Below are positions 4,489 through 55,460 of a stretch of DNA of 64,000 nt, in pieces. Under the pieces are notes generated by a model that was not told the origin of the DNA, did not search any database, and was given only the letters and a program-made list of their open reading frames with translations. The DNA comes from an uncultured Bacteroidales bacterium. Its GTDB lineage: Bacteria; Bacteroidota; Bacteroidia; Bacteroidales; P3. The position numbers and the translations under genes are program-made. The stretch lies in the NCBI GenBank assembly GCA_900318835.1, contig ONLW01000011.1:1-64000 (forward strand), given 5' to 3'. Position 1 is the first letter of the stretch, and the number at the start of each line of letters is the position of its first letter.

Positions 4489-4816
4489 ATTCCTTATTTT
4501 TAGTGTTTCTTTTTGTCCTAATATTAGGTTGCGCAGCCTTTATGTCGCGCGTCATTTGCCCCTATTAACTCCGAAAATTTATCTTTATTGCCTATTTAAT
4601 ATTTTTTATATTTTCCATTTATGCACACTTTATCAACAGCCGAAGCAATTGTTCTTGTCCGAGGTGGCAGGTCGGGTCTGGGAACTTTTCTGTCTCCCGA
4701 AAAAAATACATTTACACGCTTTGAGCAAATGTTAAAATTAACTTAAAATCCATCTCGTAAACGATAAAAAAAGCTTCTCTTGACACTAGAAGTTAACTAG
4801 CTATAAACCAGTTATT

Positions 4817-50356: not shown

Positions 50357-52516
50357 TTACAGCTCGTACTGCTGACCACTCTCCAAATATTCGGCCACGA
50401 GGGCGAGAAGTTCGTCGCCATATTTCTCCACAGTCTTGGGACCCACGCCGAGTTGTTTCTTGAGCTCCGACGGGGTGCGCGGCATATTGGTGGCGATGGA
50501 CTGGAGGGCTTTCTGTTGCAGCACCATATAGATGGGTAGACCCTCCTCCTTGGCTTTGGCGGCACGCCATTGGCGGATGAGGGTGGCGAGGTCGTTGTTG
50601 CTTGCTTGTTTGTATGCTTGCTTGTTTGAGCGCTTTTTCTTCTCTTGCTCCATCATTGCTTCCACCTTGGCTTTCTGCACGTCCTGCACGCTGTAGCCTT
50701 TCTCCTTGACGGTGCGGAGGCAGGCAACCTTGACTTTCAGCGCTTCCAATAGTTCTTTGCCCGATTCTTCCACGTTTTTGGAGATCTCTTTGTTGTCGAT
50801 CTCCACTTCGAGGAGGGCGGGCAATTGGGCGTTTGCTTCACTGCGGTCGCAGACCGTGTCTCCTGCGGAGCCAGGCATGAAGAGGGCGAGTTGTGCGAGG
50901 TAGTATTCGGCTCCTTTCTGGGCGCGTTCGTCTTGTTGCCTTTCGTCGAGGCGCATCAGCTGGGATTTGAATTTCTCGCTGACACTTTGCAGGTCTAGTA
51001 GATTGGAAATATGATTGTTAAGGAATGTGAGTTGCTCTGGGTAGATGTTCTTTAGTTTGGAGTAGTGCTCCTGCAAACGTTCTGCGAGATGTACTAGGTC
51101 GTCCATGCCAAAGAGCTCCATGAGCTTGTCCAGTCGGTACTGCCGTTCGTATTCGTCGGCGGCCTCGGTGGTCTGCTCGAAGGTGGGCTGGTTGCAGACA
51201 AACTGACTGACAGAGCGGTCTTCGAAGGCTACGTTGGCGGTCAAGGGGGTGGAGAGGGTGAGGCCTTCGAGTGTGCGGCAGCGTGAGAGCGCCACATAGA
51301 CTTGTCCAAAGGCGAAGGCGTCGGCAGCATCGATGACCACGCGGTCGAAGGTGAGGCCCTGCGCCTTGTGGATGGTGACGGCCCATGCCGCCTGCAGGGG
51401 GTACTGGCTGAAGGTTCCCTCCACCTCTTGCTCTATCTCATTGGTCTTGGCGTTGAGTTGGTATTTCAGGCTCTCCCATGTTTCGCGGCCGGTGAGGATG
51501 GTGTCACCATCGTCATTGATTACCTCGATAAAGTCTTTCTTTTCTTTTTCGTCGTAGATAAATTGTGTCACGGTCCCCAGCATGCCGTTGTAGTAGCGGT
51601 GGCCGCCGGAGGAGTCATTCTTCACGAACATTACGCGCTCGCCAATCTTTATCTCCAGGGTGCGGTCGCAGGGCAGTGACTTTTCGGGGAAGTTGCCTTT
51701 GAGGAGGGCCTCGAAGGTGCGAGGCTCGCCCTGGAGGGCTTCCATGTGGCGTCGGTTAATGGCGTCGGCCTGCCGGTTATGAGTTGTCAATGTGATAGGT
51801 GGAGTAGCTGAGTGACTGGGTGACTGGGTGACTGGGTGACTGACGCGGGCGTTGAGGGCTTGGAGGGTGGCAGGGTCTATATTGTTGTCGCGCACATGGT
51901 TCAGCAAGTCAACAAAGGTCTGGTCCTGCTGGCGGTAGACAGTGGTGAGTTCTATCGTGACATAGGGTGTCCTCTGCAACGCCTTGCTGGCGAAGAAGTA
52001 AGGGCTTGGATACACTATCTCCATGAAGGGCCGTTCTGTCTCCGTGACCACGGGCGAGAGCTGATGCACATCGCCAATCATCAGCAGTTGCACGCCGCCG
52101 AAGGGACGGCTCGAGCGACGGTAGCGCCGCAGGGTCATGTCGATGGCGTCGAGGAGGTCAGCCCTCACCATCGATATCTCATCGATGATGAGCAACTCCA
52201 GGGTACGTATGACGTTGATCTTATTTTTGCTGAGGGATTTGAACTTGTCGGGCAGTTGGTATTCGGTGACAAGTTCCTTGACGTCGGGCAGGTAGGGATC
52301 GAAGGGTAGCTGGAAGAAGGAGTGGATGGTGACGCCGCCGGCATTGATGGCCGCCACGCCCGTGGGTGTCACGATGGCGTGGCGCTTGGGGCAGCGTGCC
52401 GCCACTTCGCGGAGGAAGGTCGTCTTGCCCGTGCCCGCCTTGCCGGTGAGGAACACCGACACGCCCGTCTGCTCCACATAGCGGCGTGCCAGTTCTATCT
52501 GAGGGTTTGTTTCCAT
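50357..52516 (-). CDS. PIF1/RecD-like helicase with C-terminal HRDC domain
   Basis: From the ATG at 52516 the protein has 719 residues. Walker A is FLTGKAGTGKTTFL (about residues 22-35) and Walker B is LLIIDEISMVRADLLDAID. A UvrD-like second domain ends in AWAVTIHKAQGLTFDRVVIDA. The C-terminal part (about 620-719) has an HRDC-type domain ending PSELKKQLGVGPKTVEKYGDE. It is probably a 5'-3' DNA helicase in replication or repair. Two 8-bp-period repeats encode low-complexity peptides (SHPVTQSPSHSATPP and RSNKQAYKQASNN) at domain borders. Confidence 0.9.
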   Translation of the reverse strand: METNPQIELARRYVEQTGVSVFLTGKAGTGKTTFLREVAARCPKRHAIVTPTGVAAINAGGVTIHSFFQLPFDPYLPDVKELVTEYQLPDKFKSLSKNKINVIRTLELLIIDEISMVRADLLDAIDMTLRRYRRSSRPFGGVQLLMIGDVHQLSPVVTETERPFMEIVYPSPYFFASKALQRTPYVTIELTTVYRQQDQTFVDLLNHVRDNNIDPATLQALNARVSHPVTQSPSHSATPPITLTTHNRQADAINRRHMEALQGEPRTFEALLKGNFPEKSLPCDRTLEIKIGERVMFVKNDSSGGHRYYNGMLGTVTQFIYDEKEKKDFIEVINDDGDTILTGRETWESLKYQLNAKTNEIEQEVEGTFSQYPLQAAWAVTIHKAQGLTFDRVVIDAADAFAFGQVYVALSRCRTLEGLTLSTPLTANVAFEDRSVSQFVCNQPTFEQTTEAADEYERQYRLDKLMELFGMDDLVHLAERLQEHYSKLKNIYPEQLTFLNNHISNLLDLQSVSEKFKSQLMRLDERQQDERAQKGAEYYLAQLALFMPGSAGDTVCDRSEANAQLPALLEVEIDNKEISKNVEESGKELLEALKVKVACLRTVKEKGYSVQDVQKAKVEAMMEQEKKKRSNKQAYKQASNNDLATLIRQWRAAKAKEEGLPIYMVLQQKALQSIATNMPRTPSELKKQLGVGPKTVEKYGDELLALVAEYLESGQQYEL
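50597..50628 (-). repeat. in-frame 8-bp-period repeat in the helicase, site 1
   Basis: On the minus strand the units are CAAACAAG, CAAGCATA, CAAACAAG and CAAGCAAC. They encode NKQAYKQAS just before the HRDC domain. Confidence 0.8.
51803..51842 (-). repeat. in-frame 8-bp-period repeat in the helicase, site 2
   Basis: On the minus strand the units are CAGTCACC three times, CAGTCACT and CAGCTACT. They encode VTQSPSHSATP between two helicase subdomains. Confidence 0.85.
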
Positions 52517-52525
52517 AAGTGAATG

Positions 52526-52533
52526 CAAAAGTA
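52526..52533 (-). promoter_or_regulatory. helicase promoter -7 box with very short leader
   Basis: The minus strand reads TACTTTTG followed by CATTC. It ends 9 bp before the ATG at 52516, so the mRNA would be nearly leaderless. Confidence 0.6.
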
Positions 52534-52586
52534 CGAAGTTTTTGCCATACGGCAAAATATAATCCTCTATCTCGCGTTATATCAGC

Positions 52587-52643
52587 ATGGAAACACCGAT
52601 TTTAATTGAACATAACAAGCAGGAGTACCTGCCGATGCACACT
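52587..52643 (+). repeat. alaX 5' leader repeat, copy 1
   Basis: Nineteen codons encode METPILIEHNKQEYLPMHT, about 11 positions identical to the alaX leader after one gap. It is the most diverged and most distal copy. Confidence 0.8.
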
Positions 52644-53120
52644 GGAGGAAAAATAAAGATGGTAGTCTTGATGTTCGGACTGTTTGTGTTATGTGGTTGT
52701 GGAAACAAGGGAACTGCTGATAGTATTTCTTCGGATAGCATTGTCTGTGGTATTGTTGATGAGGGACAACATGACGACAGTCTTTCAAATGAAATCCCGC
52801 CGCCGCCAGAACCAGAGTGGAAGAGTGATTCAAAAAATATGTATCGCGAACTGACAGATTCTGAAATTACAGGCCTTTTATTTGACGGATACAGCTCGAA
52901 ATGGTCATTGGTGCACCTTGAGAGGTGGAAGGAGTTTGTAGAGGGACATCACCCATATTATTCAAAATCGGGTTGTTCCCAATGCGGACAACAACTATTG
53001 GTTGTTTACAGCGAGTCACCGCAGGAATACTGGGAGGGTTTGAGTGGCCGTGGGGGCTATTTCTTCATTTGTACCCATTGCAAGAGAATAGATGATTTTG
53101 AATGTACCGTTATGAACTAA
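52587..53120 (+). CDS. leader-fused lipoprotein with paired CxxC motifs (leader copy 1)
   Basis: The 177-residue product begins with the leader METPILIEHNKQEYLPMHT, a diverged copy of the N-terminus of the AlaX protein at 54272. It continues GGKIK and then a lipoprotein signal (MVVLMFGLFVLCGC). The mature part has CxxC pairs in SGCSQCGQQ and FICTHCKR, a possible zinc-binding fold. If translation began at the internal Met at residue 25, a normal lipoprotein would result. The body is AT-rich compared with the core genes. It is first in a five-gene plus-strand unit, divergent from the helicase. Confidence 0.7.
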   Translation: METPILIEHNKQEYLPMHTGGKIKMVVLMFGLFVLCGCGNKGTADSISSDSIVCGIVDEGQHDDSLSNEIPPPPEPEWKSDSKNMYRELTDSEITGLLFDGYSSKWSLVHLERWKEFVEGHHPYYSKSGCSQCGQQLLVVYSESPQEYWEGLSGRGGYFFICTHCKRIDDFECTVMN

Positions 53121-53126
53121 AATGAT

Positions 53127-53186
53127 ATGGAACAAGAACCTATTTTAAACGCTCATAACAAAGAGGAATACACTCAGATGCACACG
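53127..53186 (+). repeat. alaX 5' leader repeat, copy 2
   Basis: Twenty codons encode MEQEPILNAHNKEEYTQMHT, 17 of 20 residues identical to the alaX start; the DNA shares long stretches such as TTAAACGCTCA. Confidence 0.85.
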
Positions 53187-53528
53187 GTAGGAACGGACCA
53201 ATCCTCAGCATTAGAACGCTTTTTTGCTTGTTTGTTGAAATATTGGTGGGTACCTGTCTGTGTGACAATGCTGTGTTATCTTTTCAATTTGGTAGGCGAT
53301 TTCTATTCGTATGCCAATAATACAGACTATTTGATTGATTGGGCACCATTTGCTCAGTTGCCGTTTATGATAGGTTGCCTTTCATTTCTGTGGAGAGGTA
53401 CAGCATTCTTTATGGCACTGGCCAAAAAGAAATGGACGGTTACATTATTGTTGTTTCTGTTTCATTTGTTGTGTTGGGTGCTTTTTTACTTTGTGAATCT
53501 GCGATATTATCCATATAGCGAATTATAG
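53127..53528 (+). CDS. leader-fused small membrane protein (leader copy 2)
   Basis: The 133-residue product begins MEQEPILNAHNKEEYTQMHT followed by VGTDQ, then three hydrophobic segments (about 40-60, 72-88 and 103-123). It looks like an integral membrane protein of no known family. The leader matches that of the AlaX protein at 17 of 20 residues. The remainder is AT-rich and unrelated to the neighbouring products. It starts 6 bp after the previous gene. Confidence 0.68.
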   Translation: MEQEPILNAHNKEEYTQMHTVGTDQSSALERFFACLLKYWWVPVCVTMLCYLFNLVGDFYSYANNTDYLIDWAPFAQLPFMIGCLSFLWRGTAFFMALAKKKWTVTLLLFLFHLLCWVLFYFVNLRYYPYSEL

Positions 53529-53541
53529 AAGTATATCAATT

Positions 53542-53601
53542 ATGGAACAAAAGCCTGTTTTAAACGCTCATAACAAAGAGGAGTACCCGCCGATACATAC
53601 G
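53542..53601 (+). repeat. alaX 5' leader repeat, copy 3
   Basis: Twenty codons encode MEQKPVLNAHNKEEYPPIHT, 18 of 20 residues identical to the alaX start. It is the copy nearest alaX and the most similar. Confidence 0.88.
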
Positions 53602-54270
53602 GGAGGATTGAACACATCCTTAATACTATTATTGCTGCCCTTATTGATGATGGTTGTTTCATGTCAACGAAATAGTGACAGGATAATTCGACAGACTTAC
53701 TATGTTGATGATACCTCGTGTGTTTTATTGTGTCCTATCCAGAGCACATACGGAGACAATGCTGAAATAATTGTCAAAATTGGTGATAAAGAAGGCAAAT
53801 GTGAGATTTCATACAGAGAAAACCCGTATAGTTATCATGAAATAACACCTTATATTTATGATGTTTATGAAGATACGATTGTAGTTATGTATGAGATGAC
53901 GCATACCCCTTGGACAAAAGACACAGAGGAAGTGTGGTTTGTTGAGCATGTTGATGTTGAAGGCTGTGGTAATTATGTTGTCAAAGGGGTGTACCGCAAT
54001 TACTACAATGGTTGGTCTGTTGGGAGAATTGAAGGAATGAATTGGGATGAAGACTATTCATATGTCATCGACAGTGTTGTCAGTATTAATGACTCGTTTT
54101 ACGTCTATAAAGGGAAGGATATCATATATGAGGCGCATCAACGAGATGTAGAATGGGACTCGGATAAAGGATATTGGAAGGTCTCATATATGAATAGTTT
54201 TAAGAATGTGGACGGTTATACATACAGGATGAGGAATGACATTAGATTTGTTAAGAAACACAATAGATAA
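53542..54270 (+). CDS. leader-fused lipoprotein (leader copy 3)
   Basis: The 242-residue product begins MEQKPVLNAHNKEEYPPIHT, then GGLNT and a lipoprotein signal (LILLLLPLLMMVVSC, Cys at about residue 42). The mature part is rich in Tyr, Asp and Val, likely beta-structured, and of no known family. Unlike copy 1 there is no Met directly before the hydrophobic segment except inside it, so the leader is probably translated as a long signal-peptide n-region. The stop is one base before the alaX ATG. Confidence 0.7.
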   Translation: MEQKPVLNAHNKEEYPPIHTGGLNTSLILLLLPLLMMVVSCQRNSDRIIRQTYYVDDTSCVLLCPIQSTYGDNAEIIVKIGDKEGKCEISYRENPYSYHEITPYIYDVYEDTIVVMYEMTHTPWTKDTEEVWFVEHVDVEGCGNYVVKGVYRNYYNGWSVGRIEGMNWDEDYSYVIDSVVSINDSFYVYKGKDIIYEAHQRDVEWDSDKGYWKVSYMNSFKNVDGYTYRMRNDIRFVKKHNR

Positions 54271-54271
54271 A

Positions 54272-54331
54272 ATGGAGCAAGAACCAGTCTTAAACGCTCA
54301 CAATAAAGAAGAATACCCGCCGATGCATACG
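54272..54331 (+). repeat. alaX 5' leader repeat, copy 4 (parental)
   Basis: Here the 20-codon leader is continuous with the rest of the enzyme, and its last residues H19-T20 belong to the catalytic HTAEH motif. This makes alaX the likely source of the other three copies. Confidence 0.85.
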
Positions 54332-54748
54332 GCGGAGCATATTCTGAACCAGACGATGGTGCGGATGTTCGGCTGTCCGAGGTCAAGGAACGCGCATATT
54401 GAAAAGAAAAAGAGTAAGTGCGATTATCTGCTTGATGCCTGCCCTACGGAGGACCAGGTGCAGGAGATTGAACGCCGCGTGAACGAGGTGATAGGCCGTC
54501 ATCTGGATGTCAGCTACGAGTTCGTGAAGAGGGGGGAGGTGCCGCCGGAGGTGGACCTCTGGAAACTGCCCGACGATGCCAGCGAGACGCTGCGCTTGGT
54601 CCGCATCGGCGACTACGACCTCTGTGCCTGCGTCGGCACCCATGTGCAGAGCACCTCCGAAATCGGTACCTTCAAAATCCTCTCCCACGACTATAACCCC
54701 GACACCCACATCTGGCGGATGCGGTTCAAACTGGATGAGATAAAGTAA
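54272..54748 (+). CDS. alaX: AlaX-type tRNA-editing hydrolase (threonyl/alanyl-tRNA SAD domain)
   Basis: The 158-residue protein starts MEQEPVLNAHNKEEYPPMHT and continues AEHILNQTMVRMFGC. It has the HxxxH zinc motif HTAEH (H19, H23) and the CxxxH motif CVGTH near residue 125, both diagnostic of the AlaX/SAD editing domain that hydrolyses mischarged tRNA-Ala. The GC-rich body resembles the core genome, unlike the three AT-rich genes before it. The upstream frame start at 54236 overlaps the previous gene and is not used. Confidence 0.9.
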   Translation: MEQEPVLNAHNKEEYPPMHTAEHILNQTMVRMFGCPRSRNAHIEKKKSKCDYLLDACPTEDQVQEIERRVNEVIGRHLDVSYEFVKRGEVPPEVDLWKLPDDASETLRLVRIGDYDLCACVGTHVQSTSEIGTFKILSHDYNPDTHIWRMRFKLDEIK

Positions 54749-54760
54749 CTAAACATCAAC

Positions 54761-55246
54761 ATGAAAAACGCCTTTTTACTCGGAGCGTTGATAATCGGGA
54801 TGTTCGCCGCTTGCAAGGGTGGTGCGACAAGCGAGGTTGCAACTGACTCTATGATTGAAAGAGACCATTCCGACATCGACATCGTGTCGCAATACAGAGG
54901 GACAGAAGATGTGTATGTCGACGGGGACCAGACAGAATATGTGCTGATATTCCGCTCCGAAGGATGTATCAACAGGATGTTGCACGAGGTGGAAAACGAT
55001 TCCGTGGCGATGGAAGATTTCTACGTGGCGATAGACGATCTGTGGTATTACTATTATCTGTGCCATGAACGGCTTGAAAGGATGGGTGTCAAATTTCATT
55101 CGACATCTGCAGACAAGACGGTGTTTTGTCAAGGCGGCGTTGCATACCGACCGCAAGACAGTTGTGCTTGCGGAGTCCTGATGGTCAAGCCTGGTTGTCG
55201 GTTTGAGTTTGTGGACCTAATGGATTTCTTATTCGGAAAAGAATGA
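54761..55246 (+). CDS. lipoprotein of unknown function
   Basis: The 161-residue product has a lipoprotein signal (MKNAFLLGALIIGMFAACKGG, Cys at residue 18). It lacks the leader of its upstream neighbours. The mature part contains several cysteines toward the end (FCQGG, DSCACGVLMVKPGC) but no family I know. It starts 12 bp after alaX and probably ends the five-gene unit. Confidence 0.68.
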   Translation: MKNAFLLGALIIGMFAACKGGATSEVATDSMIERDHSDIDIVSQYRGTEDVYVDGDQTEYVLIFRSEGCINRMLHEVENDSVAMEDFYVAIDDLWYYYYLCHERLERMGVKFHSTSADKTVFCQGGVAYRPQDSCACGVLMVKPGCRFEFVDLMDFLFGKE

Positions 55247-55249
55247 GAT

Positions 55250-55460
55250 GACCTCTTCGTGAAGAGGGGAGAGGCGCCTTCCGAGGAAAAAGCCGACAGG
55301 CCCCGCTCCATCGAACACGACTTGCGTCACCCCAACCGAGGCAAAGTGCACCGCCTCATTGAGGTGTTTTGGCAGAAGTTGGAAGACGGCGTGAGAAGCT
55401 GTCCAGGCTATACCATCCCGAGACCAAGACGCTCACAGTTTGTCACCGCAAGCTGACGGT
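55250..55460 (+). pseudogene. degraded segment with a short alaX-like stretch
   Basis: The DNA at 55253-55290 reads LFVKRGEAPSEE in one frame, resembling FVKRGEVPPEV inside alaX (54522-54554). The downstream sequence has only a short frame (to 55456) of unknown kind and no start signal. It may be a decayed alaX fragment or unrelated non-coding DNA. Confidence 0.35.

Follow-up and report, generated by a model that had tools for sequence, protein, structure and literature searches.

The first about 20 codons of alaX, a gene coding for an AlaX-type editing protein, probably constitute the joint through which a gene-cassette platform recombines, a reading to which we assign a probability of about three in four on the strength of sequence comparisons. 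According to this reading, the 3' end of a leader (...ATGCATACGG) would mark the start of a cassette, which would open with a conserved extension of about 22 nucleotides (GGAGGATTGAACACACCCTTAA), run through a single open reading frame (ORF) and its stop codon and end in a short AT-rich tail that is followed by the 5' part of a leader (ATGGAACAAGAACC...CCGATGCAT). This leader would recombine with any resident leader, including the one of alaX, in an insertion by which the incoming ORF takes over the resident start codon and the leader brought by the cassette provides the start for the gene behind it. In this process both sides would keep the reading frame and alaX would be left intact. The resulting array would probably form one operon transcribed from the alaX promoter, and the exchange may involve a circular or other free intermediate. 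As responsible enzyme, a site-specific recombinase acting in trans appears most likely, for which we consider the odds as even, and otherwise host homologous recombination might catalyze the reaction.

Arrays of leader-bearing genes upstream of alaX

In the window, the 64,000-nucleotide stretch of DNA that was analysed, four consecutive ORFs with intervening gaps of 6, 13 and 1 nucleotides share the same N-terminal leader (Table 1). This feature, described in an earlier note on this DNA, is found in the protein sequences and equally in the underlying DNA, where it gives rise to the direct repeats D1 (59 nucleotides, four copies) and D2 (80 nucleotides, three copies), with copies showing 63–81% identity to the reference copy. 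As also stated in the note, only the fourth leader continues as AlaX, which matches the family PF07973 (tRNA_SAD) with an E-value of 8.1e-13, above the gathering cut-off, while the first three are joined via GG, VG and GG to unrelated proteins. HTAEH and CVGTH, as read in the sequence of the fourth ORF, correspond to the HxxxH and CxxxH motifs of tRNA_SAD, which we take to be the hallmark of alanyl-tRNA editing by AlaX, and its product is an AlaX-type editing protein with predicted activity. When the 20-residue leader was used for a BLOSUM-based scan, the maximum score in simple shuffles of 40 loci was 30 and leaders in related loci mostly scored between 56 and 113, with a few weaker ones from 32 up, which excludes chance as origin of the leader likeness. 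A search of the own genome with the leader located four places among the matches listed, all in the window array. The helicase-like gene flanking the array is found in 15 of 102 loci, the window being counted. No RNA families were found between positions 52000 and 56000, and a candidate alaX fragment at 55256–55286 (23 nucleotides, E-value 0.06) was dismissed as not significant. Directly 3' of alaX, a lipoprotein-like gene without leader occupies positions 54761–55246.

Table 1. Features of the leader array in the window and of its left flank.
Feature	Position	Strand	Description
Helicase-like gene (named by eye)	50357..52555	-	divergent, left flank of the array; common to empty-site relatives
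Cassette ORF 1	52587..53120	+	leader METPILIEHNKQEYLPMHT, native-type (presumably displaced) alaX start, fused to lipoprotein-like cargo of family F0
Inferred joint, leader 1	52635..52643	+	ATGCACACT; core +33..+41, by analogy with mapped cassette pairs
Cassette ORF 2	53127..53528	+	leader MEQEPILNAHNKEEYTQMHT and small membrane-like protein of family F2
Inferred joint, leader 2	53178..53186	+	ATGCACACG; core +33..+41, by analogy with mapped cassette pairs
Cassette ORF 3	53542..54270	+	leader MEQKPVLNAHNKEEYPPIHT, GGLNTSLI extension and lipoprotein-like cargo F16
Inferred joint, leader 3	53593..53601	+	ATACATACG; core +33..+41, by analogy with mapped cassette pairs
Cassette-side extension	53602..53623	+	GGAGGATTGAACACATCCTTAA; DNA conserved across unrelated cargos, alaX without it
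alaX (AlaX-type editing protein, predicted activity)	54272..54748	+	leader MEQEPVLNAHNKEEYPPMHT, 6-codon cassette-type lead-in MEQEP..; PF07973
Inverted repeat CCGCCG-ATGCATA-CGGCGG in alaX	54317..54335	+	around the commonest joint ATGCAT|ACGG; read in the sequence

Similar arrays recur in related genomes. From a genome collection, 80 of 223 alaX relatives were kept, to which 40 longer stretches were added, resulting in 102 loci after the removal of 19 duplicates (L001–L033 and L114–L150 being outside the counts). Loci that carry titles are metagenome assemblies, and neither loci nor pairs of loci are mutually independent. Within the genus, searches with alaX matched 114 of 120 genomes, some of which contributed only weak AlaRS-like sequences, and the leader profile was detected in at least 88 of 119 genomes, with alaX leaders counted in. 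The same profile is found in 98 of 190 genomes of the family, distributed over 4 of its 12 genera, and in 53 of 393 genomes of the order. Cassettes or stray leaders are present in 47 of the 102 loci and together contain 98 non-alaX leaders, three of which are really alaX-like (two assigned to F13 and one broken by Ns). At least one leader cassette precedes alaX in 32 of the 78 alaX loci with sufficient upstream sequence, with loci containing less than 700 upstream nucleotides being left out of this count and of the empty class in the lead-in analysis described below.

The cargos define 15 families that occur in two or more loci (10 loci each for F0 and F1, 8 for F2, 7 each for F3 and F4, 5 each for F5 and F6 and fewer for the others), and another six cargos of at least 100 residues are found in one locus each. 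F2 is present in 10 of the 119 genomes of the genus and F16, among the 102 loci, in the window only, where its extension shows 0 mismatches to the shared pattern. The order of cassettes is shuffled between loci, as illustrated by the sequences F0-F2-F16-alaX in the window, F12-F0-F8-F2-F3-F1-alaX in L165, which with six cassettes reaches the maximum per array, F8-F6-F11-alaX in L170 and F0-F5-F3-F26-alaX in L167. No leader on the opposite strand was found at a score of at least 50 in the 102 loci. The gap to the next leader ORF is shorter than 20 nucleotides in 52 of 83 cases, between 20 and 199 in 12 and 200 or longer in 19, the latter containing other genes or remnants. The occupied loci are one-orientation arrays of exchangeable one-ORF cassettes.

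The cassette unit and the position of the joint

Comparison of same-family cassettes delineates their apparent unit as an ORF without a start of its own, followed by its stop codon, a short tail and the 5' part of the leader with which the next gene begins. In 51 same-family pairs of more than 85% identity, ungapped identity is 28–39% before the left leader, 67–75% in the tail, with indels included, and 40–43% from position +48 on, behind the right leader. Between genomes, the DNA preceding the left leader is mostly unrelated, and the DNA past the right leader shows relatedness only where the same follower is present. The 5' part of the leader therefore tends to move together with the cargo that precedes it. 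This is seen for F11, whose cargo is 98–99% identical in L163, L166 and L170. Its tail and the next leader are identical in these loci up to +38..+40, after which the followers, a cassette, a different cassette and alaX, diverge. Some pairs of F4, F6, F8 and F10 already differ inside the leader, and the tail is mismatched in 9 of 29 right-side pairs, in some through indels. For the F2 cassette of the window, the 3' tail and the following leader resemble those in L178, L164 and L049. A likeness of the F5 tail to the 3' end of alaX, which extends over 13 nucleotides and is barely above shuffles, was discarded.

The extension of about 22 nucleotides that follows the joint is common to unrelated cargos, and alaX is without it. 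In 36 rows, one per cluster, its third codon positions are about as conserved as the first and second. Among the matches listed for the 119 genomes, 23 copies of it are located at leaders and 4 at other places that have no leader, compared to 2 matches of a reversed-pattern control.

In pairs of at least 93% identity (25 on the left, 12 on the right), identity flips reciprocally at core +33..+45, GATGCATACGG, and the commonest joint sequence is ATGCATACGG. Pairs below 93% or below 85% identity were excluded from the mapping, which on the right relied on 12 of 29 pairs for the identity flip and on 15 pairs for a likelihood fit. In this fit, the interval +38..+41 includes 17 of 25 left and 6 of 15 right joints, with one of the six (L163_3/L182_1, at +38) containing Ns at this position, and the remaining joints are located between -19 and +30 or at +44 to +60. 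ATGCAT|ACGG is the most frequent position of left joints, and right joints of F11, F8 and F4 also pile up there. The best common point, at +39 on the left and +8 on the right, fits poorly on both sides. Leaders are slightly more alike within arrays (0.803) than between them (0.777; all 500 permutations lower), which indicates a homogenization by conversion or homologous recombination. The left side has a preferred joint point, while conversion or homologous recombination also acts. The inverted repeat found at this point in alaX shows a DNA fold with a z-score of -2.5, calculated from a hand-typed consensus, and the fold of the cassette version of the joint is no better than shuffles (z -0.85).

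The main alternative is ordinary homologous recombination, for which the leader of about 60 nucleotides would provide a short stretch of homology and selection would keep the in-frame products, with no dedicated enzyme being required. We regard this as a serious possibility, at odds of roughly one to two. The 9 of 15 right joints outside of +38..+41, the homogenized leaders and the lack of an integrase among the ORFs searched speak in its favour, and so do near host-identical leader copies located next to RhuM-Fic genes in other families. The concentration of left joints and of the right joints of three cargo families at a single point, the ends that unrelated cargos have in common and an extension that is conserved at all codon positions, which alaX homology alone would not require, all argue against it. 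We tentatively propose, at somewhat less than even odds, that the arrays reflect a separate type of gene-capture system. In such system, a dedicated recombinase acting in trans would recognize the start of alaX as a coding attachment site, which would give a start codon and an N-terminal peptide to the gene that follows, thereby making a captured gene immediately translatable and leaving the anchor intact.

The RhuM-related leader copies were found in G475, G293, G563 and G499 (L211, L212, L213 and L214), where a RhuM-like gene begins with a near-exact copy of the host's own leader and, in three genomes, is directly followed by alaX, with G293 containing a leader remnant only. The one RhuM-like protein scanned matches PF13310 and PF02661 (Fic). 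These copies fit recombination within the leader combined with homogenization, or a recent duplication. RhuM was considered as driver of the process and rejected, as 25 of 29 readable loci in a set of 30 other RhuM loci are without a repeat around the gene. Of the four with a repeat, L249 contains tandem RhuM copies and the repeat is thus RhuM's own start, and in L237, L252 and L259 ordinary RhuM genes are flanked by direct repeats of 21–108 nucleotides, which are located about 200–330 nucleotides before the RhuM match and not at its start, and which recur behind the gene. A start-donating leader is therefore not a general feature of RhuM.

The own genome encodes three tyrosine recombinases, by reading two Xer-like and one of mobile-element type, and two serine recombinases. 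With these five proteins as queries, which would not retrieve a very different enzyme, no recombinase was found in or beside the arrays among 513 ORFs of at least 70 residues from 47 loci. A recombinase, if any, would thus act from elsewhere or be of another type.

Cassettes appear to move between hosts. Cargos are more similar than the bodies of the respective alaX genes in 59 of 77 same-family pairs and not in 18. The 99.8% identity of the cargo in L165 and L176 beside alaX bodies of 72.3% identity implies a movement between species, and comparable values are obtained for L165/L180 (98.9% and 76.9%) and L185/L066 (98.7% and 74.5%). In IMG/VR, the leader pattern had 0 matches and the F0 profile no relative, and among plasmids no match was found for F11 and F2 proteins. 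In phage records, alaX-like matches were found in 12 cases. A candidate for plasmid carriage, the Parabacteroides record NZ_OY725748.1, was rejected, as the alaX relative at 150207–150668 adjoins genes for phosphoglycerate kinase, nrfA and pullulanase, and the record, which is labelled as plasmid, looks like chromosomal DNA.

Native and cassette-borne leaders

The direction in which leaders travel is best seen in a pair of closely related loci, where L066 contains one F5 cassette and L063 is empty. The flank of both loci is 98.4% and the distal leader of L066 98.1% identical to the empty counterpart, compared to 81.1% for the alaX leader and 91.1% for the alaX body. Homology of L066 to the empty site extends to core +40 in the comparison with L063 (+37 with L057) and resumes in the alaX leader. 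The comparison shows the distal leader of L066 as the native start of alaX, displaced upstream, and the leader now found on alaX as cassette-borne. In the best cases, architecture and direction of leader travel are in this way both apparent from sequence alignments. The DNA behind alaX varies between the two loci, with L066 containing about 1.4 kb of extra sequence.

The length of the lead-in preceding LNAHNK agrees with this assignment. Of the 46 empty alaX genes, 31 have a lead-in of 5 codons and 9 one of 6, whereas among the 32 occupied ones 3 have 5 codons and 28 have 6 (Fisher p 9e-9, which is not a clean probability because the loci are related). Internal leaders contain 6 codons in 24 of 28 cases and never 5, and the 32 distal leaders 5 codons in 11 and 6 in 15. 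Wherever the distal leader is of the 5-codon type, as in 11 loci including the window, the lead-in of alaX is 6 codons long. The 5-codon lead-in of ORF 1 in the window is thus of the type that is commonest among empty alaX genes. When compared to more distant empty relatives, the alaX leader of the window (0.83 and 0.89) is closer than its distal leader (0.76 and 0.74), which makes this comparison unresolving and leaves the length of the lead-in as evidence at this locus. In L165 and L168, alaX genes with a 5-codon start are located 95 and 1770 nucleotides behind the array, and the alaX of L179 also has a 5-codon start.

These properties are relevant for two explanations raised, in similar form, in the earlier note. 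Its claims that cargo genes are inserted in frame at the 5' end of alaX through the leader and that the leader is portable both gain support. If the leader were instead selected as N-terminal protein or mRNA tag that has spread by duplication, with mobility being incidental, it should be in frame with its cargo, which is mostly the case, and 81 of the 98 leader ORFs contain at least 60 codons (three of the 17 shorter ones are cut by contig ends). We nevertheless consider this explanation as improbable, since in several families the 5' parts of leaders go with the upstream cassette and since, away from alaX, only contig ends and degenerate remnants carry leaders among the matches listed. Unrelated genes that carry these leaders at a large distance from alaX, which the note had named as evidence against insertion at alaX, were not seen among these matches. 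Apparently distant leaders are mostly found at contig ends, indicating that assemblies end within an array, and the exceptions are three degenerate remnants in L156, L158 and L221. The lone leader of L158 (leader strand, about 2652–2756), which is without alaX, breaks off right after ATGCAT, the usual joint. The one in L156, at about 4736–4801, is equally without alaX, and the remnant in L221 is interrupted by Ns.

The second explanation, by which successive insertions would each leave a copy of the alaX 5' end as original target and place the oldest farthest away, now appears very improbable. It had been based on leader identities that rise towards alaX, of which 17/20 and 18/20 were reproduced but the first is 13/19 by hand count and not about 11/19. 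In general, this gradient is weak (Spearman rho -0.36 against the distance from alaX, p 0.02, for 41 leaders that are not independent, from 13 arrays with at least two cassettes). The host-specific leader copies with RhuM-Fic genes would also suit such duplications. However, for the cassettes of this genus the model is contradicted by the empty-site pair, where the farthest leader is the native one and the leader of alaX is foreign, and it disagrees with the lead-in lengths and with the F11 cassette, whose downstream leader is shared between genomes. As the distal leader is native in the clearest occupied locus, the position in an array is not an age scale.

Relation to known systems and properties of the cargo

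The alaX array operates in the manner of an integron array without belonging to this class. Both have promoterless cassettes arranged in shuffled order on the same strand, one common joint at the cassette end, horizontal spread and probable expression from an upstream promoter. For integrons, PMC8876359 describes GTTRRRY as crossover core of attC and attI and, in class 1 integrons, a short ORF encoded by attI that aids translation of the first cassette. GTTRRRY was not found at the joint, where ATGCAT|ACGG is commonest, and none of the 119 genomes of the genus passes the 265-bit cut-off for IntI (TIGR02249), with the best score of 91 bits originating from a partial match and none of 14 control genomes passing either, so that the search is without positive control. 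The lack of IntI and the different core set the arrays apart from integrons, as does the location of the joint inside a conserved housekeeping ORF. Unlike in integrons, each cassette supplies the start and the initial codons for the gene that follows it, while its own ORF relies on those provided by the preceding one. A true integron that has lost a nearby integrase would account for cassette logic and array order, but in light of the described differences and of a site that consists of coding sequence, we consider it as the least probable of all explanations.

SXT in prfC and the dusA islands integrate in the 5' end of a gene and re-supply the start of their target. They thus resemble the alaX cassettes in displacing the 5' end of the host gene and restoring its start but are large and carry their own integrase, whereas here single genes form arrays in which no integrase was found and the gene of each cassette uses the displaced start. 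CIMEs and SCC composites grow by tandem accretion of integrase-less elements and share with pdif modules and the described arrays the presence of small gene modules between repeated sites, which are moved, or in the alaX arrays would be moved, in trans. With the five recombinases of the own genome as queries, a recombinase in the element or in a same-site relative, as would characterize integrative elements and CIMEs, was not found among the 513 ORFs of 47 loci. Modules of the XerCD (pdif) type are characterized by a dif-like site of 28 bp with arms for XerC and XerD. By eye, the joint is unlike what we take to be the dif site of E. coli, from which the host's own dif may differ. In Acinetobacter, pdif modules are described to have Xer sites on both flanks (PMC12907356), whereas the arrays described here have as their site a coding leader that is linked to alaX. 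Finally, AID orphan-immunity clusters form arrays, for which we know of no leader joint. In gut Bacteroidales, these clusters are described to collect variable small genes (PMC12247911, a preprint). They differ from the arrays described here, where scanning of ten proteins provided one weak match to a defence model (Cmr5, E-value 7e-4). Among the papers listed in searches of the open-licence PMC literature, no report of alaX-anchored cassettes was found.

If correct, the proposed platform would constitute a second solution to the task of integrons, supplying translation starts and not only promoters, in rumen and gut bacteria where a search of 119 genomes from one genus found no integron integrase. 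With ATGCAT|ACGG it provides a site that can be tested, together with a natural pair of empty and occupied loci and a defined set of cassettes, and the same ends on unrelated cargos bear on the question of how gene cassettes are born. For annotation it should be considered that N-termini of cargos are here joints and that several assemblies end inside arrays.

By eye, many cargos resemble lipoproteins or membrane proteins and most match no family. Sub-threshold matches were obtained for F6 (leucine-rich-repeat models), F12 (carboxypeptidase-regulatory) and F2. For ten proteins, comprising three window ORFs and seven other cargos, no NCBIfam match exceeded the cut-off, and PADLOC detected one weak match, on F1, in the ten proteins scanned. 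Predicted structures have a mean pLDDT of 52 for F0 and 35 for F4.

Certain loci show variations of the described organization. A leader variant with an insert of about 26 residues (LAESESKANPICFAEPKQGHELNAHNK), found in the loci L049, L085, L091, L095 and L099, is present in the alaX of L085 and L099 and in cassettes, and thus constitutes a leader polymorphism common to both. L163, L173, L174 and L182 contain a short leader ORF ending in ..KECQSCKPQ[NK]QYE, which is followed by a stretch of about 840 nucleotides that in L163 harbours a cargo ORF with an ATG of its own, representing a start-independent type of cassette. Genes with their own start, which we take to encode DUF1016/YhcG-like nucleases, are located in or adjoining the arrays of L159, L161, L163 and L173.
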